Translations under genes and position numbers: made by a program
The notes under the pieces: generated by a model
What the model saw: the letters and a program-made list of their open reading frames with translations, nothing else
Told to the model about the DNA's origin: nothing
Databases searched by the model: none
Source: a virus
Reading direction: 5' to 3' (one strand)
Virus record (IMG/VR): IMGVR_UViG_3300042560_001323
Span: 124,001 to 188,000 of that record
Length of the DNA: 64,000 nt
Part shown: positions 4,310 through 61,518 of the stretch, piece after piece
How positions within the stretch are numbered: position 1 is the stretch's first letter
Layout: every line of letters starts with the position of its first letter

Positions 4310-5080
4310 TCAGGCAAAGATTGTAAGAGTTGTGGTGCCAATACCTACTCCAGAACCAAAAGCCCCCGCACCGCCAACATTGCGAATCATATCGGCAGTA
4401 AATGTGGAAGTTACTCCAACACCACCCGAGAAGTCTGTAATAACTCCAATAAAACCTCTACTGGTGTCAATCCTAAGAACTGAACCAATACCAGTTGCAG
4501 GAGCAGTGAATGCAAAGGCAACACGATTGGTAATTTGGCCATTATAACTCGTGAATGTTCTAAATGATTGACCATTAACAAAATTGGTTACGGTTGAACC
4601 GCTTGCAAATGAACGAGCAGTTGCAACAATTGGGGTGCCAGTTGGGGTGCCAGTAGCAGTAAATTGATTAATAAGCACCGTTGCACCAGCAGAAACGTTT
4701 ACAATTTCGTTAAAAACTAGATGCACAGAACCATTTCTACCGGTTCCAATACCAGAGGTGCCGCCAGCACCAATAGAAATAGGCGAGGATCGGTTTGGGT
4801 CTTCAAAAAATACCGCTACAGGAGTTGCGAGACCAAGGCCAGTAGTATTTGAACCAACACCAACGGTATTAAGACCTGCAACTGGTACTAGAACTTCATC
4901 ATAATAAGAAGTGGAAAGGCCAGATTGCTCGTTACTGCCATAGATACGATAAATCCACCCTCTTTCGTCCGCAAAACAGTTGTGTGGAGTTCTGTTTCTG
5001 TCTACATCGCGCAGAAACTTAGGAATACCATACCGGTTGTCAGCGGTTTCAGTAGTTGTTGAAATTCCCCAGAGAGCCAT
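4310..5080 (-). CDS. Putative virion structural protein (MALWG family)
   Basis: A 256-residue, beta-rich protein starting MALWGISTTTETADN, a start typical of cyanophage structural proteins encoded near baseplate genes. The N-terminal region mentions a conserved IPKFLRDVDRNRTPHNCFADERGWIYR block. The rest is Gly, Ser and Thr rich with repeated GIGT and GVG patterns, like the tail proteins in the second half of this window. A late -10 motif lies about 33 bases upstream. The exact virion location is not determined. Confidence 0.7.
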   Translation of the reverse strand: MALWGISTTTETADNRYGIPKFLRDVDRNRTPHNCFADERGWIYRIYGSNEQSGLSTSYYDEVLVPVAGLNTVGVGSNTTGLGLATPVAVFFEDPNRSSPISIGAGGTSGIGTGRNGSVHLVFNEIVNVSAGATVLINQFTATGTPTGTPIVATARSFASGSTVTNFVNGQSFRTFTSYNGQITNRVAFAFTAPATGIGSVLRIDTSRGFIGVITDFSGGVGVTSTFTADMIRNVGGAGAFGSGVGIGTTTLTIFA

Positions 5081-5655: not shown

Positions 5656-6105
5656 TTAGGTTCCACGAAGTCTAAGTTGTCTGGGTTTTGTTACTTTTGG
5701 TTTTGGCAACTTTGATGGTTTTGGTAATCTTTGAGCCTTAGGGATTAATTTTGAATCAAGAGATAATGGAATGTTTGGTTTTTTGGGTTGCATATATTTG
5801 AACTCAAGTTGTTTTGGTTCAATTCGTTTAGATGTTTGCTCTGGGGGTTTTGGTTTTGATGCTTCTCTTTCAGCCTCAACTTGCGCTCTTAAACGAGCCT
5901 GTAAACCAGCAGATACAGTTGTTGCTCCTTGAACTTTATTTCTATTAGTCTCTTCAGCTTCTCTACGTCTTTTTGCAACTGGATGCTCCGGTGGGGCCTT
6001 TTTTGATTCTGCACTTTGTAAATAACGTTCGGCATCTTTAATACCACGTTGACTCGCAAATGCTGGTCTAGGTGCCTCACCCAAAAACTGTTCAAATGTT
6101 TTCAT
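5656..6105 (-). CDS. Putative head-internal protein with capsid-targeting peptide
   Basis: A 149-residue, very basic and proline-rich protein. Its first ten residues, MKTFEQFLGE, followed by A, match the capsid-targeting peptide of T4 internal proteins (MKTYQEFIAE-A) and end in L-x-E, the gp21 prohead protease consensus. The remainder is low complexity and probably disordered (KPKPPEQ..., KPSKLPKPKVTKPRQLRLR), suited to packing with DNA. It overlaps the 415-residue gene upstream by ATGA. I infer that it is packaged in the prohead core and trimmed by gp21. Confidence 0.7.
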   Translation of the reverse strand: MKTFEQFLGEAPRPAFASQRGIKDAERYLQSAESKKAPPEHPVAKRRREAEETNRNKVQGATTVSAGLQARLRAQVEAEREASKPKPPEQTSKRIEPKQLEFKYMQPKKPNIPLSLDSKLIPKAQRLPKPSKLPKPKVTKPRQLRLRGT

Positions 6106-7349
6106 TCTTCTTTCTTATTAGGAAGACCTTTATGCTTAGTCGCGGCAAACTTACGAATTTCTGCCCCGGACATACCATCAACAATTTCTAAAACTTTATC
6201 GCTGACTTTTGAGCGGGAAACTTCTCCGCGCTTAACTGAAAGTGCCAAGCCAAAGATTTTTTGCTGCTGCTCGCTTGTTGCTTTTTCTACAAGAAAGTCA
6301 TATCTTTCAGTCAATTGGCCTAGAGTGCAATCAGAAAGGTCGTAGCCTTCATCCATTAACCGCTCAACCCATTCTCTAAATTCTGGCTTATAGAAAGCAG
6401 CCTTAAGAGCAGCCCCAATTTGTCCACCAAATCCTTTACCTGAGGCTTTTGCTTTTTTGCTAGCTTCTCTTGCCCTAATGTCTCTATCAATTCCTTCTCT
6501 TGCAGATTGGGCTAAAGTTGAAAATACTCCTCTTGTTACATTTTTAAGTTTCTCTTTATTTGCACCGAGAGTTTTCTTGGTTTCAGGTTGCTGGCTTACT
6601 GCAGCTTTAACGGCTTCATCCCCTTTACTTTGAGTCATCCTCTTAGCGAGGACTTCTTTATGTTTTTCCTTACTCTCAGCGTTTAGAGCTTTTCGTTTTG
6701 CCTCAAGAGCCTTAAGTTCAGCGGGAGTTCTTTTAGTCTTAGTTGCTTCAGTAAGAATACTATCTTCGGCAACATAGAGCACATACTCCAGAAACTTTTC
6801 TTCACCAAGATAATCAATAACCATTTCAAGGCCGTGCTCATTTAGACCTTTACTCACAAAATATTCAGCAGCAAAGTTTGAGGTTTCTACAATAAATTCT
6901 TCAGTTAATTCTTGAGTATCAATAATTGCGAACTTTTCAGTAACAGTGGGATTTATAGTAATCTTATTTTTAACTGGCTTTTCTGAAATTTGTTCCCGGC
7001 CAATATCTCTCACCTTCGGTTCTGGTTCAAGTTTTGAGATTACCTCATAGAGGTCATCTCTCCAGCTAGAAAATGACTCCGTTTTCATATCATCTTCTTT
7101 TTTACTCTTTTTCTTTTTATCTTCGTCTTCTGTTGCATCCTTAATTGCTCTATCTTTTACGCCAGCATATTCATCGGATTCATCTTCAACTTCACAGTCG
7201 CCGTCATAATCTTTGCTTTTTTTACCAGTCTTTTTATATTTCTTTTCAAACTTTTCACCGTAATCTTTATCTTCTTTTTCTTCATTAAGAATCTGAGTAA
7301 GATAAATATTTTTCATTTCAGAAAAACCTTGAATAATGCGGTCAGACAT
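6102..7349 (-). CDS. Putative head/core structural protein, 415 residues
   Basis: The N-terminal third is highly charged and repetitive (EKKYKKTGKKSKDYDGD, DEDKKKKSKKEDD). It is followed by a FSSWRDDLYEVI motif that I associate with cyanophage virion proteins, then a helical region with YDL-type capsid-protein sequence. Several L-x-E sites are visible (ILNE near residue 22; ILTE-A near 200), so gp21 processing is possible. It lies directly upstream of an MKTF-type internal protein and downstream of another. A late motif lies about 27 bases before the ATG. The exact role is unknown. Confidence 0.65.
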   Translation of the reverse strand: MSDRIIQGFSEMKNIYLTQILNEEKEDKDYGEKFEKKYKKTGKKSKDYDGDCEVEDESDEYAGVKDRAIKDATEDEDKKKKSKKEDDMKTESFSSWRDDLYEVISKLEPEPKVRDIGREQISEKPVKNKITINPTVTEKFAIIDTQELTEEFIVETSNFAAEYFVSKGLNEHGLEMVIDYLGEEKFLEYVLYVAEDSILTEATKTKRTPAELKALEAKRKALNAESKEKHKEVLAKRMTQSKGDEAVKAAVSQQPETKKTLGANKEKLKNVTRGVFSTLAQSAREGIDRDIRAREASKKAKASGKGFGGQIGAALKAAFYKPEFREWVERLMDEGYDLSDCTLGQLTERYDFLVEKATSEQQQKIFGLALSVKRGEVSRSKVSDKVLEIVDGMSGAEIRKFAATKHKGLPNKKEE

Positions 7350-7374
7350 ATTACGTTTATTAAGAACTTATGAA

Positions 7375-8604
7375 CTATTTAGACTTTTTCTTGCTCTTTC
7401 TATAATTAGTCAAGAAATTTTGAATTTCCTTTGTATTAGTCATCCTCATTGCATACTTACGAAGAGCATCCGTTCCAACTAAACGCTGATCAGAGGGAAC
7501 ACCAGAAACATCTGTCCATTCGGTAATGTCTTTAATCCAAGACTTAAACATCATATTATCTTCTGTGACACAGATAACATAATTTGGGCCGCGTCTTGTG
7601 ATTTTGCCAACTAAGCCGGTATTAAAATTTTCTACAATATCATCAACGTTAAAAATATTATTTTGGTAGTATTGTTCTTTCAAATTTTCGTAATCAAGTT
7701 TAGGGGCAATCCTCCACATTTCTGTAACTGCTCCTTTACTCTCTAGGCCACGTTGAACAGCGTGAAACAAATTCTCCACTTCCCTTTGCGGCATTGTTCT
7801 GGGAATACCGGCTCTAAACTCTGCAAAATCATCAGAAACTGCGGCTTTTCTTAGTTTGGCAGATGACATATTTGTTATATCATCAGTTGAATCTGGGTCT
7901 CTATTACCAGCAGAAACAACTTTAATTTCTGTAAACTTGTAGATATCTTTTTCCGTATTATTATGCTTATTTGCGAGTCGTTCAAACTCTGATACTCTGT
8001 CCGCCCCTACAATAATATTAACTTTTTTAAAGCCATCTTCATAGATGTTTCTCAGAACTTCAAAAATAGTTGTTAATGAACTATCATTAACAATTTTCTT
8101 TTTAAATTCGGGGAACATCTTCCGCATATATTTAATTTTCTGCGGAGGATTTAATGGGTCAGTTGTATTGTTCTGCTGCCTTGATGGATAGATTCTTAGT
8201 TCTCCACCGGATGCAACCTGTTTTGCCGTATCAAAAACTTTTTTGTGTCCAATTGTTGGTGGATTGAATCTTCCCAGGACGATCGTGATTACCTTTTCGG
8301 TTTCCACTTCTGGTGGGGCTTCTTGTTCTTTAGGGGCTGTAATGCCAGGGCGAATTCCGCCTTGAGCCGGTTTAACTTTCGGGGCTTCTCTTTCTGCTGC
8401 TGGATTTATTTTGGCTTCCGGCTTTTCAGGTAACGGAGACTTTTTCTGAATAAACTGAAGGTCACCGCTAACCGTTTGGGCAATAAGTTTTCCGGCGCGG
8501 TCAACCCAACCGCCGTGTTTGTTTGAAATTAGGCCGAGTCTGGAGGCTTTTTCGCTTGCTCGGCTTCCACGGTATTCTAGTAGAAATTCTAGAAATGTTT
8601 TCAT
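7375..8604 (-). CDS. Capsid-targeted nucleotidyltransferase-like protein
   Basis: A 409-residue, three-part protein. Residues 1-10 (MKTFLEFLLE) are a T4-type capsid-targeting and gp21 cleavage peptide. They are followed by a short RGSRASEKASRLGL block. Residues about 105-290 carry a cytidylyltransferase-like Rossmann fold with GRFNPPTIGH (T-x-G-H signature), a VGADR loop and MSSAKLRK, matching the I-S-S-T-x-x-R signature. The C-terminus has a beta-barrel-like segment (GLVGKITRRGPNYVICVTED) seen in cyanophage virion proteins. The substrate is unknown: NMN, CTP or tRNA-related chemistry are all possible. Packaging in the head, and perhaps injection, is inferred from the N-terminus. Confidence 0.78.
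   Translation of the reverse strand: MKTFLEFLLEYRGSRASEKASRLGLISNKHGGWVDRAGKLIAQTVSGDLQFIQKKSPLPEKPEAKINPAAEREAPKVKPAQGGIRPGITAPKEQEAPPEVETEKVITIVLGRFNPPTIGHKKVFDTAKQVASGGELRIYPSRQQNNTTDPLNPPQKIKYMRKMFPEFKKKIVNDSSLTTIFEVLRNIYEDGFKKVNIIVGADRVSEFERLANKHNNTEKDIYKFTEIKVVSAGNRDPDSTDDITNMSSAKLRKAAVSDDFAEFRAGIPRTMPQREVENLFHAVQRGLESKGAVTEMWRIAPKLDYENLKEQYYQNNIFNVDDIVENFNTGLVGKITRRGPNYVICVTEDNMMFKSWIKDITEWTDVSGVPSDQRLVGTDALRKYAMRMTNTKEIQNFLTNYRKSKKKSK
7376..7382 (-). promoter_or_regulatory. Late promoter -10 motif (CTAAATA)
   Basis: CTAAATA on the minus strand, about 27 bases upstream of the ATG at 7349. It overlaps the stop codon of the nucleotidyltransferase gene. Confidence 0.5.
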
Positions 8605-8623
8605 TATATCTGATATTTACTCC

Positions 8624-9379
8624 TTATTTATTAGGGCTTTTGGATTGAATACCAACAACTCTTTGTATCATATTGGTTCCCGTTCTTAGTTGTCTTTGAG
8701 TTACGTTTGCTTCAGTTCTTGATGGGTTTCTTCTGGGACTAATTGAACGTTGCGAGGATTGATTATCCGCTTGAGATGGTAAACGTCTTACAGGTTTTAC
8801 TGGGTTACCTGAGGCTGATTCTGGCGGTTTAGTTGCTTGTTTGGATTTTTTCTTTTCAGTTGGAGCAGAATCTCTTCTAGATAAATTATCAGACTCGTCT
8901 CTACTGTATCTCTGAGATGGGGTTCCACCCACTTTTGCACCAACATTAATAGTTGAACTAATGTTAGGATTGAAAACTTGTGAAGATTTTTGACCAGGCT
9001 TTATACCTTTAAAAGAAGTAGTTGTTGGGGAAAAATCAGATTGTGAAATGAGTGATGAACCTCTCCCAGTTGTAACTTTAGAGTGAGGTTTATTTGGATT
9101 TTCTCCAGCCCTTGCTAAGATTTGATTAGCCGCTGCAGTTCTCCCCCTTTGACCCAATGTTGATAGTTCTCCACCTCTAGGATTCGGTCTATCTTTTTGA
9201 GCACCAGAAGTTGACCGATAGGGATCAACCGCTCTATTTTGTGCTCGTCTTATTTCAATTTGTCCTCTGCGACTCGCTCGTTCTTCTGGAGATAGGGCCT
9301 CATTCAAAATATACTCAAAAAACCACCCTTGTTTTGCTGTGACCCCTGCTTCGGTTAAGAACTCGTCAAAAGTTTTCAT
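8624..9379 (-). CDS. Putative head-internal protein with capsid-targeting peptide, disordered
   Basis: A 251-residue basic protein. The first ten residues, MKTFDEFLTE, followed by A, match the T4 internal-protein targeting peptide and end in the ideal gp21 site L-T-E. A second possible site, L-N-E-A, occurs at about residue 27. The remainder is dominated by Ser, Arg, Gln, Asn and Pro without hydrophobic core blocks and is probably disordered. It is coupled to the preceding gene by ATGA. I infer a prohead-core or DNA-associated protein injected or retained in the head. Confidence 0.7.
   Translation of the reverse strand: MKTFDEFLTEAGVTAKQGWFFEYILNEALSPEERASRRGQIEIRRAQNRAVDPYRSTSGAQKDRPNPRGGELSTLGQRGRTAAANQILARAGENPNKPHSKVTTGRGSSLISQSDFSPTTTSFKGIKPGQKSSQVFNPNISSTINVGAKVGGTPSQRYSRDESDNLSRRDSAPTEKKKSKQATKPPESASGNPVKPVRRLPSQADNQSSQRSISPRRNPSRTEANVTQRQLRTGTNMIQRVVGIQSKSPNK
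8625..8631 (-). promoter_or_regulatory. Late promoter -10 motif (ATAAATA)
   Basis: AATAAATAAGGAG on the minus strand combines a late -10-like motif with a ribosome-site-like AAGGAG, about 21 bases before the nucleotidyltransferase ATG at 8604. Confidence 0.45.
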
Positions 9380-9780
9380 TTTTGTCTTTTAGTTTTTCCC
9401 TTTAATGCTGCACCAACCTTTGCTCGGGCGGAAGGCTGAATTTCGGCTAATCTCCGGGAAATAGACTGAATAGATGAATCATCACCTTTCTGCATTGCAG
9501 TTCGCATTTGCCCGCGAAGTCTCGCAAGTTCTCCTGCAACTTCACTATCTTCAGATGCTTCAACGATAGAATCAATCCATTGCTCGCTCATATTAGCCAT
9601 AAGAACCTGGGCATCTTCAATAGTATCGGCGAAACCTTCACCTAGTAGGTGTTCTAGAACTACGTCGTATAGGTCATATTCGTATGAGGTATTAAGTTCG
9701 CCCACTTCTTCACTAAGAACATCCTGGCGGTAAACATCACCATAAGATTGATATAGTTCCCAAAACTGACTGCCGTTCAT
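9376..9780 (-). CDS. Putative virion/prohead protein, 134 residues
   Basis: It contains YDLYDVVLEHLLGEGFADTIEDAQVLMANMSEQWIDSIVE, a helical block that recurs in marine T4-like virion proteins. A basic C-terminal tail (AKVGAALKGKTKRQK) follows. It is the first gene of the head-internal cluster, with a late motif about 24 bases upstream. It overlaps the next gene by ATGA. No enzymatic motif is present, and membership of the prohead core is inferred from context. Confidence 0.65.
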   Translation of the reverse strand: MNGSQFWELYQSYGDVYRQDVLSEEVGELNTSYEYDLYDVVLEHLLGEGFADTIEDAQVLMANMSEQWIDSIVEASEDSEVAGELARLRGQMRTAMQKGDDSSIQSISRRLAEIQPSARAKVGAALKGKTKRQK

Positions 9781-20136: not shown

Positions 20137-20727
20137 TTAATCAAATAGTTCAACGTCTTCAATAAAAGATTTTAAGTCTTCTTCTGTCACAGAGACACCA
20201 TTTTCCACCTTGACTTTAGGTCCAATAAAATCATTGATTCGTTGGATTCTCGTTTCAATGTCTTTTACATCAAGAGCGTGAAGTTCATAATGTCCAGTAA
20301 AGTCAAACAGCGGAACAAAGGTTAGAGAATCACCCCGTTCAAAGAGTTTGTGCATACCCATTAGTTCATAAGTGGCATACCAGGCGGCATTCCTGGCGGC
20401 ATACCCGGCGGCATACCCGGCGGCATACCCGGCGGCATCCCAGGCGGCATACCCGGCGGCATCCCAGGCGGCATTCCTGGCGGCATACCCGGCGGCAGAC
20501 CCGGCGGCATCCCTGGCGGCATCCCTGGCGGCATCCCTGGCGGCAGAGTCTAGGGCACGGTAGCGGCGGGCAACTTCATTCCATTGGTCGGCAGTAAGAC
20601 CATCCGTAAACCACCAGAAGTTAAGGACGGTTTCGTAGTTTGGTCCTAGAAAATTCTGTGGATTTTTTAGGGCTTCAGGGTTTTGAAGGTAGTTGGAGAA
20701 GTTTTGATGTGCTTTGGAGTAGTTCAT
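20137..20727 (-). CDS. Alanine-rich tetrapeptide-repeat protein between gp45 and gp44
   Basis: A 196-residue protein in three parts. The N-terminal block (1-60) has [24 protein letters not shown]. Residues 61-118 are about 14 tandem four-residue units of the form AA-x-x ([16 protein letters not shown]), and a C-terminal block (119-196) follows. The repeat probably forms a long alanine helix or stack. It is coupled to gp45 by ATGA. Similar Ala-repeat proteins occur in many phages and bacteria, without a known function that I can cite. Repeat number may vary between isolates. Confidence 0.75.
20374..20547 (-). repeat. 12-bp tandem repeat (about 14 copies) encoding AA-x-x units
   Basis: In the coding direction the unit is GCCGCC followed by six variable bases, consensus GCCGCCGGGTAT or GCCGCCAGGGAT. 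Base composition is far more GC-rich than the flanking DNA. It lies wholly within the coding frame, so changes in copy number keep the frame. Confidence 0.93.
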
Positions 20728-35710: not shown

Positions 35711-35890
35711 ATGGATGAGCAAACTTTTTGCAAACAATGTGGCTCTGAAATTGACCCGGACTGTTGTTGGTGTGGTAATTTAATTGAAGGCCATCATTGG
35801 TCTGATGGCCATTTTCCAGTTCCTTGGGGCTGCACCTGTTATTATGTTAATCTGAGCGATTCTTTTGATATTGATTTAAATGACACTTAA
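35711..35890 (+). CDS. 59-residue zinc-ribbon-like protein
   Basis: The start MDEQTFCKQCGSEIDPDCCW is chosen over an ATG ten codons upstream. CxxCG ... CCWCG ... GHHW ... CTC provides enough ligands for one or two zinc ions. Similar treble-clef mini-proteins are common in cyanophage early regions. It overlaps the start of the endonuclease gene by 11 bases. Confidence 0.6.
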   Translation: MDEQTFCKQCGSEIDPDCCWCGNLIEGHHWSDGHFPVPWGCTCYYVNLSDSFDIDLNDT

Positions 35891-37379
35891 AGAAGTAATT
35901 CAAGATAATTGGAGCGGAAGACAATTTATTAGAATTGCCACAAATGCCGGTCTTAAAACTCAGATTGAACAACGAACTTCTTTTCTTGATCTGCATTATC
36001 CAAATATAAAACTAAAACAACGGGCATTTGTTCTTCTGAATGATTTAACAGAGGAACAACTGCCTTATTGTCGTTGTGGTTGTGGTAAAAGGGCCAGTCT
36101 TAATAGAGAACCCGATAAGGGGTTCAGTAAGTATTTTAACGAGGACTGTCATAGAAGATCACCAAAGATTTCTGATGATGCCCTTGAGAAACTTTCTAAC
36201 AAAGAATGGTTATTTGAGCAGCGGGTGATACTTAAAAAAGCCATTGAAACGATTGGCGATGAACTGGGTGTTTCACACGTTTCAGTTGATAAGTGGTTAA
36301 AAAAGCACGGGATTAAACAACTTAAAATTTCAAGAATACGCAATTTAGAAGGTTATAGTGTTATTGATGATAAAGAAAAACTTGTAAATCTTTACGATTC
36401 TGGTTTAACGTGTCAACAAATAGCCGAGCCTTTAAATGTAACAAGGGGCGCTATTGCCAGAACTTTAAAAAGTTATGGGGTTAAATTGAGACCCTCAAAC
36501 TCTTACGAAAGAACTGTTAAGAAAGTCAGTGGAGAAGAGCAAGAACTTATTGATTTTATTGGTGAAATATACAAAGATAAAATCTTAACTTCCAATCGTT
36601 CTGTTCTTAATGGACGAGAACTTGATATTTATTTACCCAAACATAATCTGGCAATTGAGTACAATGGCCTCTATAGTCATTCTTATAAACCTTGGGAAGA
36701 ACGTGAAAGTCTTATTAAGGGACCAAACTACCACTTATCAAAAACCGTTGATTGTGAAAAATTAGGTATTCAACTAATTCACATTTTTAGCGATGAGTGG
36801 AACTACCGGCAGGCAGTTGTTAAGTCTATTTTAAAAAGTAAGTTGGGTATCAATGAACGGATTTATGCTCGTAAATGTTCTATTGTTGAAGTTGATATTG
36901 ATAGCAAGAATAAATTCTTAAATGATAATCATATTCAAGGTGAAGATAAATCCAGTATTAAACTTGGCCTGGAATATGAAGGAGTTCTGATGTGTTTAAT
37001 GACTTTTAATAAGTCAAGATTTAATAAAAAATATGAGTGGGAATTGGTGAGATTTTGTAATGCTGGCGGTATTAATGTTGTTGGTGGGTTCAGTAGATTA
37101 CTGTCTTATTTTAGAAGTAATTTTGGGGGTTCTATTATTTCTTATGCTGATAGACGTTATTCTGATGGTGGGGTGTATTTTAAGAATGGATTTGAGTTGA
37201 TACGTGTTAATAAGCCTGGGTATTATTACGTTGATAAGAACTATTTGATTCGTCATAATAGAATGAAGTTTCAGAAGAAACTTATTGGGGCTTATGATTG
37301 TACTGAGTATGAGAAAGCCAGGGAGATGGGATTTAATAAGATATTTGATTGTGGTAGTTTGAGTTTTGGGATGAATTAA
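35880..37379 (+). CDS. Vsr-like (EDxHD) homing endonuclease
   Basis: A 499-residue mobile nuclease. An N-terminal zinc site (CRCGCG about 64-69, C90 H91) is followed by two helix-turn-helix repeats (IGDELGVSHVSVDKWLKKHGI; IAEPLNVTRGAIARTLKSYGV). The catalytic Vsr-like fold starts at about 220 and includes GRELDIYLPKHNLAIEYNGLY (E247, D249) and GIQLIHIFSDEW. A C-terminal region has ARKCSIVEV, WELVRFCNAGG and SYADRRYSDGG. This matches the I-Bth0305I/EDxHD homing endonucleases. It is free-standing, not in an intron, and abuts an oppositely directed GIY-YIG gene. Confidence 0.88.
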   Translation: MTLKEVIQDNWSGRQFIRIATNAGLKTQIEQRTSFLDLHYPNIKLKQRAFVLLNDLTEEQLPYCRCGCGKRASLNREPDKGFSKYFNEDCHRRSPKISDDALEKLSNKEWLFEQRVILKKAIETIGDELGVSHVSVDKWLKKHGIKQLKISRIRNLEGYSVIDDKEKLVNLYDSGLTCQQIAEPLNVTRGAIARTLKSYGVKLRPSNSYERTVKKVSGEEQELIDFIGEIYKDKILTSNRSVLNGRELDIYLPKHNLAIEYNGLYSHSYKPWEERESLIKGPNYHLSKTVDCEKLGIQLIHIFSDEWNYRQAVVKSILKSKLGINERIYARKCSIVEVDIDSKNKFLNDNHIQGEDKSSIKLGLEYEGVLMCLMTFNKSRFNKKYEWELVRFCNAGGINVVGGFSRLLSYFRSNFGGSIISYADRRYSDGGVYFKNGFELIRVNKPGYYYVDKNYLIRHNRMKFQKKLIGAYDCTEYEKAREMGFNKIFDCGSLSFGMN

Positions 37380-38140
37380 TCTTCTACCTTGAAGACCTTA
37401 TAGCCCTTATATTGCCGCAATTTACCGTGTGCAACATTCGTCATATTACCTTGATCTAGGCCATTTTCCCTGCAGTATTTTGTCAAATTAATTACAATTT
37501 CTTCTTTTCCTTCTGGAGTTATAACTAACCATTTTTTCTGATTTGCCTCTCTAGCCCGTTGTTTTTGAAAATCTGTTTGTGGTCTTCCTAAACTTAACTG
37601 TCTTGTTTTTTCTATTACCTCTTTTGTACGCTTTTTCCCGGTATTAGATTTACTTATTTTTGCCTTTGTTTCATCTGATAATGGTTTTCCTTTTTGGGGG
37701 TGTACGAACATTTCTGAGGCATACATTTTCTTTTTGGTTTCACTCATTTTCTTTTTAGATTCTTCTGAGTGTTTTTTCCCCCACCAATGATGGTCTTCAC
37801 CTTTAAATGATGGTGGCCGCCCTGATTCTAAAATATTTAATAAAATTCCGTTCTCATCAAAGCCGACTCTTCCATATTTTTTTATTTGACTTTCTTCTAA
37901 TAAGTATGCTTCTTCTTCGTTTAAATTTTCTGCAACTTTTGTGATAATTGGTATATTATTATCGTCAATTAAATTTCTAATATATCCATTTAGTCTCTTA
38001 TTAAAAGCATATTCTTTTTTGTCCGTCAGGTGTTGTTTACATCTAGAACCACAACCCTTTCCGATGTAAAATATTCTATTTGTGATTGGATTTATAATGT
38101 GGTAAACATAATATTTGGCTTTGTCTTCGTCTGGCTTCAT
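37376..38140 (-). CDS. GIY-YIG homing endonuclease with NUMOD3 repeats
   Basis: A 254-residue free-standing endonuclease of the Seg type. The catalytic domain has YYVYHIINP and FYIGKG (residues 10-29) and a glutamate helix AYLLEESQIKKYG (about 78-90). Residues 117-190 hold NUMOD3-type DNA-binding repeats (WGKKHSEESKKKMSE; GKPLSDETKAKIS; GKKRTKEVIEKTR). The C-terminal part (NLTKYCRENGLDQGNMTNVAHGKLRQYKGYKV) resembles an IENR1/NUMOD1 helix-turn-helix. It lies beside gp23 and converges with the Vsr-like gene with a four-base overlap. Confidence 0.9.
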   Translation of the reverse strand: MKPDEDKAKYYVYHIINPITNRIFYIGKGCGSRCKQHLTDKKEYAFNKRLNGYIRNLIDDNNIPIITKVAENLNEEEAYLLEESQIKKYGRVGFDENGILLNILESGRPPSFKGEDHHWWGKKHSEESKKKMSETKKKMYASEMFVHPQKGKPLSDETKAKISKSNTGKKRTKEVIEKTRQLSLGRPQTDFQKQRAREANQKKWLVITPEGKEEIVINLTKYCRENGLDQGNMTNVAHGKLRQYKGYKVFKVED

Positions 38141-38232: not shown

Positions 38233-39639
38233 TCACATCAAATTTTGGACGCGAACCCGGCGGTAGTAACGATTAGAGTTAATCAGTAGTCTACCTAGAC
38301 CTTGGTTAGTACCCTCGGCAAATGGGTTAGCAACTAGACCGTAGCGCGTCTTAAAGCCGATCCTCGGGACAAAATTATCCTGACCAACGGCGCGAACCAT
38401 TTGGAGAGGCACATATGGAGCATAAAAAATTCCTGCGTCGTAAGGAGAAGTACCCTTATAACCAACCACATAATACTGGTTGGAATCTACGTTAGCAGAA
38501 TAAGGGTCAATATAAACGCGGAACTTACCCATTAGAACACCAGCAAAAGTATTACCGGTATCATCAACGTTAAGGTTAGCGTTTAGGGCAGGAGTGTAAT
38601 CAAGTACACCAGCCATAGTTAGCGCAGAGGCTACGTCGGCTGAGCACATAATCACGTTACCCTTCCCACGACGAGTACGCTGAGCGATAGCGTTAGCATC
38701 ACGCTCAATCTGGAATAGAAGACCTTTGAACTTCTCAACGGACCAACGGCCATTTGAGTCAACATCAAGGTCAAAAATACCTTGCGTAGCAACGTTAGTT
38801 GCAGCACCCTGTTCAGCCACCTTATAGATGGTGCGGATTACTTCGCGGTTGATTTCAGATAGAATCTCAGTAGAGAGAATATTAGCAAGTTCGGCTTCGG
38901 CACTTAGACCGTGAATAGCCTTAAGGTCTTGAGCAAGTTCAAGAGTGTATTCAGCCTTTAGAGCGCGGCTCTTGGCTTCTACTAGAACTTTCTCAATAGA
39001 GAAGCTCATCTCGTTGAATTGGTCACCGGTGGCATAGCCTAGGGCTTCTGCATCACCAGTTCGCATAGCTTGACCGGTCTGATATGCGAGTGAAGAAGCA
39101 GTACCAACAGGGTTAAGTAGACCAGGGTTAGAACCACTGTTACGATTGTTGGTAGTACCCATACCAACGTTACCATCGGTGAAACCGGCATTAACGTTGA
39201 AGCCGCTATCTTGGCCAGAGAAGGTGGTGTCTACTTCATCAAAGAAGGTTTCAGCACCGCGCTGGTCAGTATAACGTGAGCGCATTGCAAAGATTAGTCC
39301 GGTAGGACCAGTCAGAGGTTGTACGCCAGCGAGGTCATAGGCAACCAGATTAGGCATTGATCGACGAATCAGTGAGATTAGTACAGGGTCAAAACCGGCA
39401 ACTGGGCCGCCAGCAGAGGCGCTGCCGCTGAAACCGCCACTAGTACCGGCAGCATTGCCAATAGTGGGGGCTTCAAATAGCATACCACGAGAAAAGTCTT
39501 GCTCTTCGCGGAGGTAGCGTTCTTGGTTTTCTAGCAGTTGAGCGGTTACATTTCTGCGGTGAGAATCCTTGATTGGATCAAGGCCATCATAGTTGAGAAG
39601 GGGTGACCACTTTTCCTGCAATTGTTCGTTTAGAAACAT
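38233..39639 (-). CDS. 23: Major capsid protein gp23
   Basis: A 468-residue HK97-fold capsid protein. The N-terminal arm (LLENQERYLREE) ends at about residue 56 in the gp21 cleavage site L-F-E followed by A (GMLFEAPTIGN). Family blocks include FDPVLISLIRRSMPNLVAYDLAGVQPLTGPTGLIFAMRSRY, AEYTLELAQDLKAIHGLSAEAELANIL and NVIMCSADVASAL. The end reads YGLVANPF. An AAAGG site precedes the ATG. The gene is followed by a strong terminator. Confidence 0.98.
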   Translation of the reverse strand: MFLNEQLQEKWSPLLNYDGLDPIKDSHRRNVTAQLLENQERYLREEQDFSRGMLFEAPTIGNAAGTSGGFSGSASAGGPVAGFDPVLISLIRRSMPNLVAYDLAGVQPLTGPTGLIFAMRSRYTDQRGAETFFDEVDTTFSGQDSGFNVNAGFTDGNVGMGTTNNRNSGSNPGLLNPVGTASSLAYQTGQAMRTGDAEALGYATGDQFNEMSFSIEKVLVEAKSRALKAEYTLELAQDLKAIHGLSAEAELANILSTEILSEINREVIRTIYKVAEQGAATNVATQGIFDLDVDSNGRWSVEKFKGLLFQIERDANAIAQRTRRGKGNVIMCSADVASALTMAGVLDYTPALNANLNVDDTGNTFAGVLMGKFRVYIDPYSANVDSNQYYVVGYKGTSPYDAGIFYAPYVPLQMVRAVGQDNFVPRIGFKTRYGLVANPFAEGTNQGLGRLLINSNRYYRRVRVQNLM

Positions 39640-39682: not shown

Positions 39683-40828
39683 TCAGTTTTTGCGGAACAT
39701 ATCAGCCGCTCTGAGATATTGTGACATTGAATCTGAGACTGACTCAGGTGAATAGTCATAACCTTCAGAAAGGGTTTCAGTTACCACATGCTGGGATACT
39801 CTACGAGTGGGAAAATAAGATTCCCTTAGAGTTTCCAACTTACCTCTATAAGTTTGCTCACCTTCAAACTCAACACTTTCAGCAAGTGTGGCGAGCTTCT
39901 CTTTCTGAGTGGCCGCTAGACCTTCAGATACTTCATCAAGGATTCTATCCGCAACCGACTCGGAGAGTCTTTGGTTTAGGCGGATATTCTTCTCAATTTG
40001 CTCGTTGAGTTTTTCTTCCATTTCATCTAGTTTTTCTACCATGCCTTCCAGCACATCATACTTTTCTTCAGGCATTTGCACATAATGTTGTTCACAAAGT
40101 CCCTTAAGACCTTCCAGGAAGGACTCGGTAACCTTAACTTTAATACCAGTCTCAACTTGGAGACGGTTTTCTTCTAGCCACTCTTCGGCTACATACTCTA
40201 GATAAGCATCTACACGCTCTTCTAGTTCTTCTTTGATCGTTTCTACTTCTTCAAGAAGTGCCTGCTCGTATTGGACTTCCAGGGCTTCCTTAAGTTGAGC
40301 AGCGCGGGTTTTAAGAGCGGCTTCAAAGATGGTGCGAGCTTTTTCTTGGAACTCTTCAGAAAGTTCTTCGCCTTCCATAAGGGCGTTTACGTCCTCATCA
40401 ACGTTGAACTCTTCTTCATAGACTTCCTCTTCTTCGTCATCTTCATCGTCTTCTAGGTCTTCATCTTCGTCTTCATTTTCCTCTATGTCTTCGTCTTCTA
40501 GAAGTTCTTCATCTTCGTCATCTAGTGATTCCTTAACTGCACCGGATGCAAGATGAGGAGTAGGTTCAGCAGGCTTTGCTCCACGAGTAACTACATCGCT
40601 GACTTTAGAAATACGACCAGCTGGGTCTTTAAACTTTGCCGAATCGTCGTCGTTTTTATAGTTTTCTGGGGTGGGACCACCTAAATCTTCCCAACCTGCG
40701 GTTTGTCCATCTGGAATACCAGTGGTTAGTTTGGGCATAGGTTCAGCAGGCTTTGCTCCACTGTTTACTGCAGTTCTTGACTGAGGATTCTTTGCGTCCA
40801 TTTCTTGTAGATTCTTACCACGAGGCAT
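39683..40828 (-). CDS. 22: Prohead core scaffold gp22
   Basis: A 381-residue scaffold. The N-terminal linker carries two copies of a GAKPAEPxPxL motif (about 24 and 84), followed by a strongly acidic run of Glu and Asp (about 110-150) and then long coiled coils. The C-terminus (YSPESVSDSMSQYLRAADMFRKN) is typical of cyanophage gp22. It is degraded by gp21 during maturation. A late -10 motif and AGGAG precede the ATG. Confidence 0.93.
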   Translation of the reverse strand: MPRGKNLQEMDAKNPQSRTAVNSGAKPAEPMPKLTTGIPDGQTAGWEDLGGPTPENYKNDDDSAKFKDPAGRISKVSDVVTRGAKPAEPTPHLASGAVKESLDDEDEELLEDEDIEENEDEDEDLEDDEDDEEEEVYEEEFNVDEDVNALMEGEELSEEFQEKARTIFEAALKTRAAQLKEALEVQYEQALLEEVETIKEELEERVDAYLEYVAEEWLEENRLQVETGIKVKVTESFLEGLKGLCEQHYVQMPEEKYDVLEGMVEKLDEMEEKLNEQIEKNIRLNQRLSESVADRILDEVSEGLAATQKEKLATLAESVEFEGEQTYRGKLETLRESYFPTRRVSQHVVTETLSEGYDYSPESVSDSMSQYLRAADMFRKN

Positions 40829-40903: not shown

Positions 40904-41551
40904 TCAAATACTATTTAGAAAACTATTAAATAGCTCTAGTTTTTTCTCTTCAAGTTGACGAGATTCTACTAGTTTGTTAATATTTTTCCTGGTATCTTCA
41001 ATAAGCCATTCATTTTTAGTCACATCGTAATACCATTCTCTACCTTCCATAATACCTTCTACAAATGCAGAAGTACAAGAAGGATCGTGAACAATATCTG
41101 CAACAGTTGAGAACATTAGATCGTCTCCTACAATATTTACACCCTCATTGGTTGCTCTTAATGAACCTACCGCTCTTGAAGAAACACCAAAAACGACGCC
41201 TTCTTCGTGAAGGTTTTTTACAATATTACCCATTGGGGTATTAGTGATAGACGCTCTACCATAAAAATCGTTTCCCTTTCTCGTGATAGATTCAATGATA
41301 TGGGACACTCTATCATAGTTAATAGTTGGGGTTGCACTATGACCAAGTTCACCCACTGCTCGTCTTTTATTAACAAAGTTCTCAATATAAAAATTTACGG
41401 CATTATTGAGAACTTGAAAGGGATAAACTCTACCATTTCTATTTTTATTTTCCGCTTGACAAAATACTCCTTCAATATAAAGTTTTTTCTTACCGTTTAC
41501 ACTTTCGGTGAGCATTTTCACATTTTGAGCTTCTTCCGTAAAAAGTTTCAT
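40904..41551 (-). CDS. 21: Prohead maturation protease gp21
   Basis: A 215-residue serine protease (U9/S77 family) that cleaves gp22, gp23 and internal proteins after L/I-x-E. The fold blocks YIEGVFCQAENKNRNGRVYP, AVGELGH (catalytic His) and GVSSRAVGS (catalytic Ser) are visible, followed by VADIVHDPSC. Its presence supports the reading of MKTFxxFLxE termini elsewhere in the window as cleavage peptides. A late motif lies about 24 bases upstream. Confidence 0.95.
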   Translation of the reverse strand: MKLFTEEAQNVKMLTESVNGKKKLYIEGVFCQAENKNRNGRVYPFQVLNNAVNFYIENFVNKRRAVGELGHSATPTINYDRVSHIIESITRKGNDFYGRASITNTPMGNIVKNLHEEGVVFGVSSRAVGSLRATNEGVNIVGDDLMFSTVADIVHDPSCTSAFVEGIMEGREWYYDVTKNEWLIEDTRKNINKLVESRQLEEKKLELFNSFLNSI

Positions 41552-58407: not shown

Positions 58408-58414
58408 TATTTAG
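58408..58414 (-). promoter_or_regulatory. Late promoter -10 motif (CTAAATA)
   Basis: CTAAATAGAC on the minus strand, about 23 bases before the ATG at 58385. It overlaps the end of the portal gene. Confidence 0.5.
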
Positions 58415-61400
58415 ATTTCCCCGCCCTTAGGCATTTTGGGTTCTTTGGGTTTAATATCCGGTTCTACGGGAACTTTACCAGATTGACCTTTTATGTTGTT
58501 ACCCGCGCTAGAGGCTGCTGTGGGGCTCTGTGGGGTGGCTGCAGTGCCTTCTGGTGGGACCATACCCACTTCTATGGGTAAACCAGTTCGTGGGTCAACT
58601 GGTGCATTTGGGTCGGGAATAATACCGTCTTCAATCTCCTTTGCCATAATTTCATCTTGCTCAATAATCTCCTCATCAGTCTGACGAAGAATCTTGCGGC
58701 GCAAATAATCTTGTGAGAAATATCTTCCAACATAAGGCTCTGCCATAGATGCCATATTGAGCCTTTCGGTGAAGAGTTCAGATTCCTTAAGTTCAGCAAA
58801 GTGATTATCATATAGAAAGTCAAACTGAATATGTTCAGCCATTTTTTTCCAGTCTTCTGGCGTTACGATATTCTTCAGTAAAAGTTGGGTTCTTAGGAGA
58901 TCAATAAAAAGTTGAGAGAAGCGTTTGCGGAGTCTTCCCACAAATTTTGTGAACTTAACTTCATCTCTGAGGATTTCAGTTGAACGGCCAAGGTTAAATC
59001 CACTATCTCCGCCGATGCGAGTCTCTGGCACATTTAGTGCCTTATATAGATTACGTTTGAAGTAATCTAAATCGGACAATTCGCCAAGACTGCTATTTTT
59101 AGTATAAATGCCACAGGAAAGAGCAAAGGTGTGATAGTTATGAATAGACTCGTCTGAATCAATAGTTAATGTTCCAACTTCAATTTCATCAGTTAGATAT
59201 TCAATATTTGTAATAGTATGGTTATAAAATTTAGTTTCCATTCTAAAATGATGCCAGTTTTTGTAACCAAAATCTTTAACCATATTCCTAACAATATTTA
59301 CTGTAAACCCATTGGAGACGTTTACATTTGGGATAGACTTGTTAGCATTAAGTTCGCTGAAAAGATTCCGCATTGAAATATTTTCATTGAGCATATTGCA
59401 TACGTCAATTGCCTTAACTTGATGTGTGGTTTTTCCAATAACTATATTTTTTACGAACTCGAAATGTGAACGGGAAACTGCAACTTTTTGTCGCTCTTGA
59501 TGATTCTCTTTATATTGTCTTGCATAAACTGGGTCACTAAAGCGCATCTGCGAAGACTCTCTACTTCTGTTTGCAGCTTCTTCCTTCATTTCTTCAGTCC
59601 AACTATTTCGTATTTGTTGTCTGAACCATTCATTGTAATCTGGGTCTTTTAATTTCTCCTGAAGGGATTCTGATGCACCCTCAAGATTTTTTATAGAGGT
59701 TTCAATCTTCTTCTCTTTTTCATCCTCTGTGAGATTTTTAAAATGATTAATCTGACTGTTTTTTATGTTTAAACACCATTCTTCTCGTTTTTCGGGAGTA
59801 ATTGTTTCCCAGGTTCTTTTTCTTGCTTCAGAAGCCCGCTTCTTATATTCAAGGTAGAGTTCTGGATTAGTTTCTTTTAAGGATTCAAGAAACAGTTTCT
59901 TGATTTTATTGATTTCTTTTGAATGATAATGAATATGGTCAAAATGACCCATAAAGCATAGATTATCTGGGTTATTATTAAAACGGTTTAAATCAATGTG
60001 ATGAATGGTTTGTTTTGGTTCATTTTTGTCCTCATAGATGAAATCATTACAGTAAGAGCCTTTACAGCGATTTGCAATTAATCTATGGGTGAATTTCCAA
60101 GTTTTATCAACATTATCATAAATCATTTCATAATCTGAAGAACTCTTGCTGATTTTTTCCTTCTTCCTATGAAGAGGGATCATACTTTGTCCTACAGTCA
60201 AATCCTTTGCCTCAACAAAACCCAGGTCATAAATTGGGAACTTGTGGTCGTAAGTGCATACAAAGCTCTCATCGTTATCAAGAGTAATCTTTATAACCTT
60301 TGCACTCTTTTGTGTTACTCCGGCCCAAGAAATCAAACCCGGCGCAAACTCACCAGTTGAAGGATGACAAGAGTAAGTCCAAAGTTGCTCACCATTTTTC
60401 ATTTCGGACTCAATCTCTGAAATTGTCAATTCTCTTCCATCTAGTAGAGACACTTTTGTATCCATTGATAGACAGCCCGCCGGTAAGGTGGTAACCTCAG
60501 TTCCGCGACCACCTTCTCTACGGGGGAACCAAAAGTCTTCCATAAGACTCATAAACTTACGAGAAGTATCTACCTCACCGGTAAGGCTATTGTAGTTCAT
60601 CTTATTACGATACTTCATCATCTGCTCACGAAGGAACTGCTCAGCCTTGGGTTTTGGTAGATTACCTACGTCAATATAGAAAATTCTTTTTTCTGAACTT
60701 CTACTGAGACGATAAATGACTACACTATCTTCAATCATTCTAAGTTGATTGAGAACTTTGATTGCTTTATTAAGATATGAAAGGGATGTCCCCTTATTTC
60801 TATCAACCAAGCCCGAGGTACAATATGCGATGGATTCTTTTGTAAATTTGATTCCCTTTTCCGCACCAGCGGTCATACCTGCTGCACCTACTGGATATGT
60901 TTGTTTGGGACTATAAACAAAATATTCCTCAAGTTCTGGGAAAACTTGTTCATTTGGCCCTTGATCTCCATACATTTTTGGACCAAGAATATCTTTCTTT
61001 TGCTTTTTCGCTTGACGAACATAGCGAATTTTCATTGCATCCACATACCGAATATCTTGAATTCCAGCGTGTGGGTCTTTAATGTCAATTAGTTTATGAT
61101 AATAAAGCCGCCCATCAATATACCAGTTCCTAAAAATTTCGTGAGACTTTTTATCAAAATCGAGCATTTCAAGAATTGCTTTAAATTCCTGACGAATCGC
61201 ATTTTTAATTCCATCACTTGCATTAAGATTAGAAAGTTCAATCTCAATTGGAGAATCGTTTGTATCCGATACAATTGCCTCGTTTACAATATCTTCAATG
61301 GCGCTATCAACTTCGTGATGAAGCGCCATTTCCCGATAACGTTTGATTAAATCAAACTCTGTTCTATAAACACCTTCAACATCAACATAAGAACCAAAAA

Positions 61401-61518
61401 AGCCGGTTGTCAAATAATGATCGGAACCATCATCATTATTAGGGGGGACCGGCGAAATTATATTTTTAGATAATTTTTTATCGTTATCTTCAATAGAAAA
61501 TCCAAATAATCTAGCCAT
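58411..61518 (-). CDS. 20: Portal vertex protein gp20, interrupted by an in-frame intein
   Basis: A 1035-residue precursor. The extein portions (1-348 and 809-1035) make a 575-residue portal that forms the dodecameric DNA channel and nucleates the prohead. Markers are YRTEFDLIKRYREMALHHEVDSAIEDIVNEAI, RIFYIDVGNLPKPKAEQFLREQM and PRREGGRGTEVTTLPAG. After the insert come LGELSDLDYFKRNLYKALNVPETR and VGRLRKRFSQLFIDLL. The intein lies exactly between TTLPAG and SSLGEL, where other gp20 proteins read on without a gap. A late motif lies about 26 bases upstream. Confidence 0.97.
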   Translation of the reverse strand: MARLFGFSIEDNDKKLSKNIISPVPPNNDDGSDHYLTTGFFGSYVDVEGVYRTEFDLIKRYREMALHHEVDSAIEDIVNEAIVSDTNDSPIEIELSNLNASDGIKNAIRQEFKAILEMLDFDKKSHEIFRNWYIDGRLYYHKLIDIKDPHAGIQDIRYVDAMKIRYVRQAKKQKKDILGPKMYGDQGPNEQVFPELEEYFVYSPKQTYPVGAAGMTAGAEKGIKFTKESIAYCTSGLVDRNKGTSLSYLNKAIKVLNQLRMIEDSVVIYRLSRSSEKRIFYIDVGNLPKPKAEQFLREQMMKYRNKMNYNSLTGEVDTSRKFMSLMEDFWFPRREGGRGTEVTTLPAGCLSMDTKVSLLDGRELTISEIESEMKNGEQLWTYSCHPSTGEFAPGLISWAGVTQKSAKVIKITLDNDESFVCTYDHKFPIYDLGFVEAKDLTVGQSMIPLHRKKEKISKSSSDYEMIYDNVDKTWKFTHRLIANRCKGSYCNDFIYEDKNEPKQTIHHIDLNRFNNNPDNLCFMGHFDHIHYHSKEINKIKKLFLESLKETNPELYLEYKKRASEARKRTWETITPEKREEWCLNIKNSQINHFKNLTEDEKEKKIETSIKNLEGASESLQEKLKDPDYNEWFRQQIRNSWTEEMKEEAANRSRESSQMRFSDPVYARQYKENHQERQKVAVSRSHFEFVKNIVIGKTTHQVKAIDVCNMLNENISMRNLFSELNANKSIPNVNVSNGFTVNIVRNMVKDFGYKNWHHFRMETKFYNHTITNIEYLTDEIEVGTLTIDSDESIHNYHTFALSCGIYTKNSSLGELSDLDYFKRNLYKALNVPETRIGGDSGFNLGRSTEILRDEVKFTKFVGRLRKRFSQLFIDLLRTQLLLKNIVTPEDWKKMAEHIQFDFLYDNHFAELKESELFTERLNMASMAEPYVGRYFSQDYLRRKILRQTDEEIIEQDEIMAKEIEDGIIPDPNAPVDPRTGLPIEVGMVPPEGTAATPQSPTAASSAGNNIKGQSGKVPVEPDIKPKEPKMPKGGEI
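59095..60474 (-). mobile_element. Intein with HNH homing endonuclease inside gp20
   Basis: 460 codons. Block A begins with Cys1 (CLSMDTKVSLLDGRELTISE). Block B is CTYDHKFPIYDLGFVEAKDL, with the T-x-x-H motif. The central HNH endonuclease has HHIDLNRFNNNPDNLCFMGHFDHIHYH and is followed by repeated basic helices (NUMOD-like: RKRTWETITPEKREEW ...). Block F/G is VGTLTIDSDESIHNYHTFALSCGIYTKN, ending in Asn before Ser+1. The penultimate residue is Lys instead of the usual His. Protein splicing is predicted to restore the portal. Confidence 0.93.

Follow-up and report, generated by a model that had tools for sequence, protein, structure and literature searches.

Otherwise unrelated proteins of a probable cyanophage, one of them a probable NMNAT-like enzyme, share a leader that resembles the capsid-targeting sequence of T4

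Three genes lying close together in a viral genome encode proteins that begin with nearly the same ten residues and have little else in common, and the question is what such a leader is for. The genes lie in a 64,000-nucleotide stretch (the window), which corresponds to bases 124001-188000 of a virus record of 243,166 bases (G000). The first-pass annotation had read 5656-9780 as a cluster of proteins probably carried inside the capsid, each with a T4-type targeting and cleavage peptide. The three leader genes that it placed at 5656, 7375 and 8624 were confirmed as open reading frames of the minus strand. The cluster itself was only partly as described: it does hold the three leader genes, but two leaderless genes, 6102-7349 and 9376-9780, also lie inside it. 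The features of this region are as follows, with the putative capsid-targeting sequence abbreviated as CTS:

5656..6105, minus strand: 149-aa leader protein, start 6105, MKTFEQFLGE-A; basic, pI 10.8; sole match phrog_2280, weak
6076..6105, minus strand: putative CTS leader MKTFEQFLGE of the 149-aa protein; predicted cut E10-A11
6102..7349, minus strand: 415-aa neighbour, leaderless; DUF3008 domain at the C-terminus
7375..8604, minus strand: 409-aa leader protein, start 8604, MKTFLEFLLE-Y; NMNAT/cytidylyltransferase-type domain at residues ~105-285
8575..8604, minus strand: putative CTS leader MKTFLEFLLE of the 409-aa protein; predicted cut E10-Y11
8624..9379, minus strand: 251-aa leader protein, start 9379, MKTFDEFLTE-A; basic, pI 11.4 after residue 10; without family match
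9350..9379, minus strand: putative CTS leader MKTFDEFLTE of the 251-aa protein; predicted gp21 cut E10-A11
9376..9780, minus strand: 134-aa neighbour, leaderless; bears a 43-aa helical module

The gene order is 134-aa module protein, 251-aa and 409-aa leader proteins, 415-aa protein with the DUF3008 end, and 149-aa leader protein, and the cluster sits between MazG/gp41 and the gp61 primase, both flanks being named by synteny. The nearest annotated relatives include phages B23 and S-SRM01 (Kyanoviridae); a nucleotide search of phage records found no near relatives. With Synechococcus phages as the nearest relatives, the host is probably a cyanobacterium. In phage S-SCSM1, gp280 is the positional counterpart of the 415-aa gene, and both gp280 and the DUF3008-like gp279 are annotated as virion proteins. 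A CTS-like C-terminus on DUF3008 proteins, suggested by S-SCSM1 and S-SM2, was seen in just two of 13 distinct tails and was dropped as a candidate. Elsewhere in the window, a minus-strand gene at 4310-5080 belongs to a family starting MALWG that occupies the same place in S-SM1, S-SM2, S-SCSM1, B23 and S-SRM01 (MSLWG in the last); its S-SCSM1 member is annotated as a tail fibre and virion protein. At 20137-20727 (minus strand), a 196-aa protein contains a run of near-repeats.

A relaxed regular expression for the leader, applied to all ORFs of the window, matched the three genes and no others. In G000, of which 98.7% was covered, ATG frames 45 aa or longer number 1573; the strict and the loose expression alike found the leader on six of them, against 0.005 expected when residues 2-13 were shuffled. 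Reversed-pattern controls gave 0 matches in every genome searched. Leader aside, the six proteins showed no significant mutual similarity (best E 0.04), as the first-pass annotation had claimed for the three it knew. All six are basic, with pI values of 9.6-11.4 in the window and 10.2-10.8 among the other three, which form a second cluster on the plus strand (223706, 223936 and 224574). This second array (G000:C1:223200-225330; L011 1200-3327) consists of a module protein, overlapping leader genes of 77, 213 and 45 aa, and a further module protein. The shortest of the three leader ORFs is possibly a broken gene, since the end of the next ORF resembles the leader protein B23_252.

What the leader resembles was indicated by T4. 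There, residues 1-10 of IPIII are enough for packaging; residues 4 and 7 are the main determinants of targeting, and residues 8 and 10 govern processing (PMC9026906). F4, F7, L8 and E10 are present in each of the window leaders; the residue after the predicted cut (P1') is Ala in two of them and Tyr, not Ala, in the 409-aa protein. The decapeptide MKTYQEFIAE had been ascribed to T4 IPI and IPIII. When the T4 record was searched with the same pattern, three matches were obtained (none with the reversed pattern), namely ipIII (66386), an ORF at 65689 and gp61.1. The ascription therefore stood for ipIII, but the second ORF is by position ipII and not the gene for IPI; the propeptides of IPII and IPIII are reported as identical and that of IPI as merely similar (PMC9026906). 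The third match, gp61.1 (L236 2467-2631, minus strand), is a 54-aa protein with the CTS-like leader MKTFKEFIKE-D, encoded between genes 41 and 61, which is also the genomic place of the cyanophage cluster. It is possible that gp61.1 is an overlooked T4 internal protein.

The search was extended to viral contigs, as the first-pass annotation had proposed for related phages. An exact-pattern scan returned at least 118 complete leader ORFs in at least 61 cargo clusters, one of them GroES-like. The five GroES-like co-chaperonins that match (MKTFNLFVVE) are likely a class of false positives, so the leader pattern alone is no proof. Two positions outside the search pattern were also skewed in the way expected of a CTS and gp21 site: residue 11 was Ala or Ser in 33 of 60 clusters (background 15.6%, p=2.6e-11), and residue 6 was Gln or Glu in 45 of 60 (11%, p=1.4e-27). 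Pfam families among the leader proteins listed included S-adenosylmethionine (SAM) lyase (11), CTP_transf_like (11), DUF6267 (5), Zeta toxin/AAA_33 (4) and DPBB (2), with HicA, HD_4, GNAT and HNH found once each; the cargo names denote predicted family membership. Cargo resembling ADP-ribosyltransferases, picked by eye from YHGT or HYTS starts in L113, L147 and G001, had no Pfam support and was set aside. One stretch (L203 6502-9422) holds four leader genes, an unusually long array.

Among T4-like phages with gp21, KVP40, Aeh1 and RB49 had no match to the leader DNA pattern, which indicates that the leader in its present form is not universal in this group. The leader was not found in phiKZ, SPO1 and phage G, which lack S77 (910 kb searched). 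A recognisable S77 protease was present in six of 14 large leader-bearing contigs, and the other eight are perhaps fragments. A gp23 family search of these eight gave no match; the same search returned nothing anywhere, and the contigs may be incomplete.

The most informative cargo was the 409-aa protein, which matched PHROG 395 (E 9.7e-87) and Pfam CTP_transf_like (E 6.3e-6) and is a full-length member of T4-GC190, a family (T4-GC190/PHROG 395) that is core in cyanophages. It carries the motifs GRFNPPTIGH and MSSAKLR, and GRFNPPT..H was invariant in 20 aligned homologues. A structure model built from 20 homologues (mean pLDDT 65) had a confident core at residues 105-285, most of it at pLDDT 70-93, and the Foldseek hits of the model were NadM, NadD and PPAT (phosphopantetheine adenylyltransferase), with E between 1e-5 and 1e-4. 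A phmmer search of the protein against the PDB returned nothing significant. Judging from the family matches, the motif and the model, the protein is probably an NMNAT-like nucleotidyltransferase, with a fold that fits an NMN, pantetheine-phosphate or CTP-type substrate alike.

The leader was strongly retained on this enzyme. Among its relatives in viral contigs, found with probes that excluded the leader, 68 of 68 kept it, and in one group it was one residue shorter (MKTFSLFLE-S). M1, F4, F7 and E10 were invariant in the 20 aligned homologues, whose adjoining stretch of ~85 residues diverges and is missing in some. Isolates carry it as well: S-SM1 (MKKFSAFLNE-A), Syn9 (MKKFSAFLSE), P-SSM2 (MKSFSQFLTE), S-SCSM1 (MKSFLQFLKE-A) and B23 (MKKYLEFIIE). 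The exceptions were HTVC008M (MKTLKELLRK) and S-PM2, the orthologue of which has no leader.

Published virion proteomes bear on the same family. T4-GC190 was detected by mass spectrometry in the S-SM1 virion (PMC3037559), and the S-SM1 gene is tagged GC 190. An NMNAT was detected in the S-SCSM1 virion, where the authors could not exclude carry-over (PMC9602691), and the S-CBWM1 virion is also reported, as cited within the virion reports, to contain an NMNAT orthologue. The GC190 orthologue of S-PM2 is listed as undetected in the virion (PMC3037559); that a leaderless orthologue is also the undetected one fits packaging by the leader, as a single case studied by differing methods. Virion orthologues are thus known for one of the three window leader proteins, the 409-aa NMNAT. 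Near the NMNAT gene of S-SCSM1, gp089 (which bears the 43-aa module), gp282, gp280 and gp279 are annotated as virion proteins, and its leader gene gp030 has no such annotation.

Taken together, the key T4 residues, the 68 retained NMNAT leaders and some 60 cargo clusters support the modular delivery of unrelated cargo that the first-pass annotation had advanced. We consider it very probable that the decapeptide is a T4-type capsid-targeting sequence, which would load its cargo into the head, be cut by gp21 and allow ejection of the cargo with the DNA. A different reading would be that the leader is a structural tag, which directs its bearers elsewhere in the virion, for example to the tail or baseplate, or docks them uncut on the core, and does not serve delivery. 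The published virion mass spectrometry did not separate heads from tails and so leaves room for this, and the Tyr at P1' of the 409-aa protein points the same way. However, the residues at all four functional positions of the T4 CTS are identical, the excess of Ala and Ser at residue 11 suits a protease site, and the leader is found on soluble enzymes, not on tail families. On this balance the structural tag appears improbable.

It could also be argued that the common start is a nucleic-acid signal (for ribosome binding, translational coupling or a transcript element), to which the peptide is incidental, given that the genes follow one another closely, head to tail, and that their starts and stops overlap. 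Yet synonymous codons at K2, T3, F4, F7 and E10 vary at about background rates and codon choice within the leader is close to the choice made further along each gene, which places the constraint on the peptide; position 8 is conserved by amino-acid properties, and the conservation extends to codons 10-11. A count of ATGA overlaps was discarded as meaningless, since ATGA is part of every ATG-AAR start. We regard a nucleic-acid signal as highly unlikely. Just as little credit is given to chance, or to a leader left over from common ancestry: duplication can indeed produce neighbouring genes, but the excess of matches in G000, the lack of significant similarity among the six cargos and the roughly 60 unrelated cargo clusters elsewhere all speak against it.

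For the capsid-targeting sequence, the window also encodes the expected partners, including the gp21 protease that had been placed at 40904 and is now borne out by its Peptidase_S77 match (E 1.8e-34):

38233..39639, minus strand: gp23 major capsid protein; LFE56-A57 is a candidate gp21 site of its own
39683..40828, minus strand: gp22 scaffold/core protein (T4_CASP), on which the leaders are proposed to dock
40904..41551, minus strand: gp21 prohead protease (Peptidase_S77); proposed cutter of the leaders

Residues 54-57 of gp23 (LFE-A), a candidate gp21 site, match the leader sites in form. By analogy with T4, the amphipathic leader (F4, F7) would dock the protein onto the gp22-based prohead core late in infection, and the docked cargo would be enclosed once gp23 builds the shell. 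Cleavage by gp21 after E10 would then free the mature protein, which would remain in the head beside the DNA until it is ejected into the host. Turnover of cargo would amount to an exchange of the sequence downstream of the leader. For the phage of the window we infer the docking partner, the cleavage and the ejection from this analogy.

Other features of the head genes were observed. Homing-endonuclease-like ORFs adjoin gp23 at 35880-37379 (plus strand) and 37376-38140 (minus strand), one of them GIY-YIG-like (YYVYHIINPITNRIFYIGKG). The gp20 portal gene (58411-61518, minus strand) encodes 1035 aa with an apparent intein-like insertion (CLSMDTKVSLLDGRELTI ... NYHTFALSCGIYTKNS) and a homing-type sequence within it.

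The 134-aa neighbour and the 251-aa protein share a further element, which may be a second targeting module:

9553..9681, minus strand: 43-aa module (YDLYDVVLEHLLGEGFADTIEDAQVLMANMSEQWIDSIVE-A) in the 134-aa protein; candidate second targeting module
9296..9322, minus strand: within the 251-aa protein, what is left of the module's final helix (FFEYILNE-A); possible second cut site

This module is helical, with a consensus near YDxVLEYLxxEGFAxSxExAxxxxxxMSxxWxxxIxE-A, and its end, like that of the leader, is often [IL]xE-A or -G. It lay within 2 kb of leader genes in eight of 17 matches against 0.6 expected, a modest result because five of the eight were seeds of the profile (three of 12 with the seeds removed). 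It was also present in several leader-bearing contigs that had been picked regardless of it. The arrangement of leader, module and cargo differs between loci, most revealingly for the 251-aa gene. In the window, its leader runs straight into the final helix of the module, followed by the cargo. The relative L018 has that cargo (83% identity across 230 residues) behind the module, in place of the leader, in an ORF of its own, with the leader on a separate 63-aa gene, and in L017 a single ORF combines leader, module and a partly related cargo. Searching the viral contigs with the module alignment failed, the module being too variable, and a single-protein search gave five close loci. As far as sequence comparison goes, these arrangements tentatively suggest that the module is a second loading signal; its internal or C-terminal position in some proteins argues against a simple propeptide. 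A wider proposal, which we offer as a possibility that is more doubtful than probable, is that in marine and freshwater T4-like phages the CTS and an interchangeable 43-residue module load the head with a broad and quickly changing array of enzymes for injection (among them NMNAT, SAM lyase, Zeta-like kinase and HicA), which would act as preloaded metabolic and anti-defence effectors.

The window proteins resemble T4 IPI, IPII and IPIII in their ten-residue N-terminal leader, with aromatic residues at 4 and 7, Ile or Leu at 8 and Glu at 10 (P1' being small in two of the three), and also in their basic cargo, dissimilar beyond the leader, their small gene arrays and the presence of gp21 and gp22. 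In T-even phages at least ten internal-protein genes identified by their leader have been reported, and T4 Ip1-3 are inhibitors of Type IV restriction enzymes (PMC12373910). Since identification of genes by the leader is already established there, the window genes belong to a known CTS class, and what is new is the conserved enzyme cargo and its breadth. Whereas the T4 internal proteins are of 8-20 kDa and poorly conserved, several of them being Type IV restriction inhibitors, one cargo here is an enzyme of 45 kDa that is conserved among cyanophages. T4 Alt, an injected ADP-ribosyltransferase, is likewise packaged in the head and has a propeptide cut by gp21, but the Alt propeptide has seven residues and is accompanied by C-terminal processing (PMC9026906), and Alt has no sequence relation to the window cargo. 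In the open-access literature searched, no paper on an MKTF leader of phages and no description of the leader in cyanophages was found; a single paper there mentions both cyanophages and capsid targeting, and it is a review on T4.

Reports on the cyanophage NMNAT (T4-GC190, PHROG 395) noted its presence in virions without an N-terminal packaging signal. Cyanophage virions have repeatedly yielded this NMNAT-like enzyme, and the authors of those reports could not decide between cargo and carry-over; the leader on the NMNAT supplies a mechanism for its presence there. The leader also offers an easy way to predict, from sequence, injected proteins in abundant uncultured T4-like phages. An NMNAT-like cargo would likely serve to form or replenish NAD, or a related dinucleotide, immediately on entry, and could restore NAD against NAD-depleting defences. 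The predicted SAM lyases could counter SAM-dependent restriction ahead of any phage gene expression.
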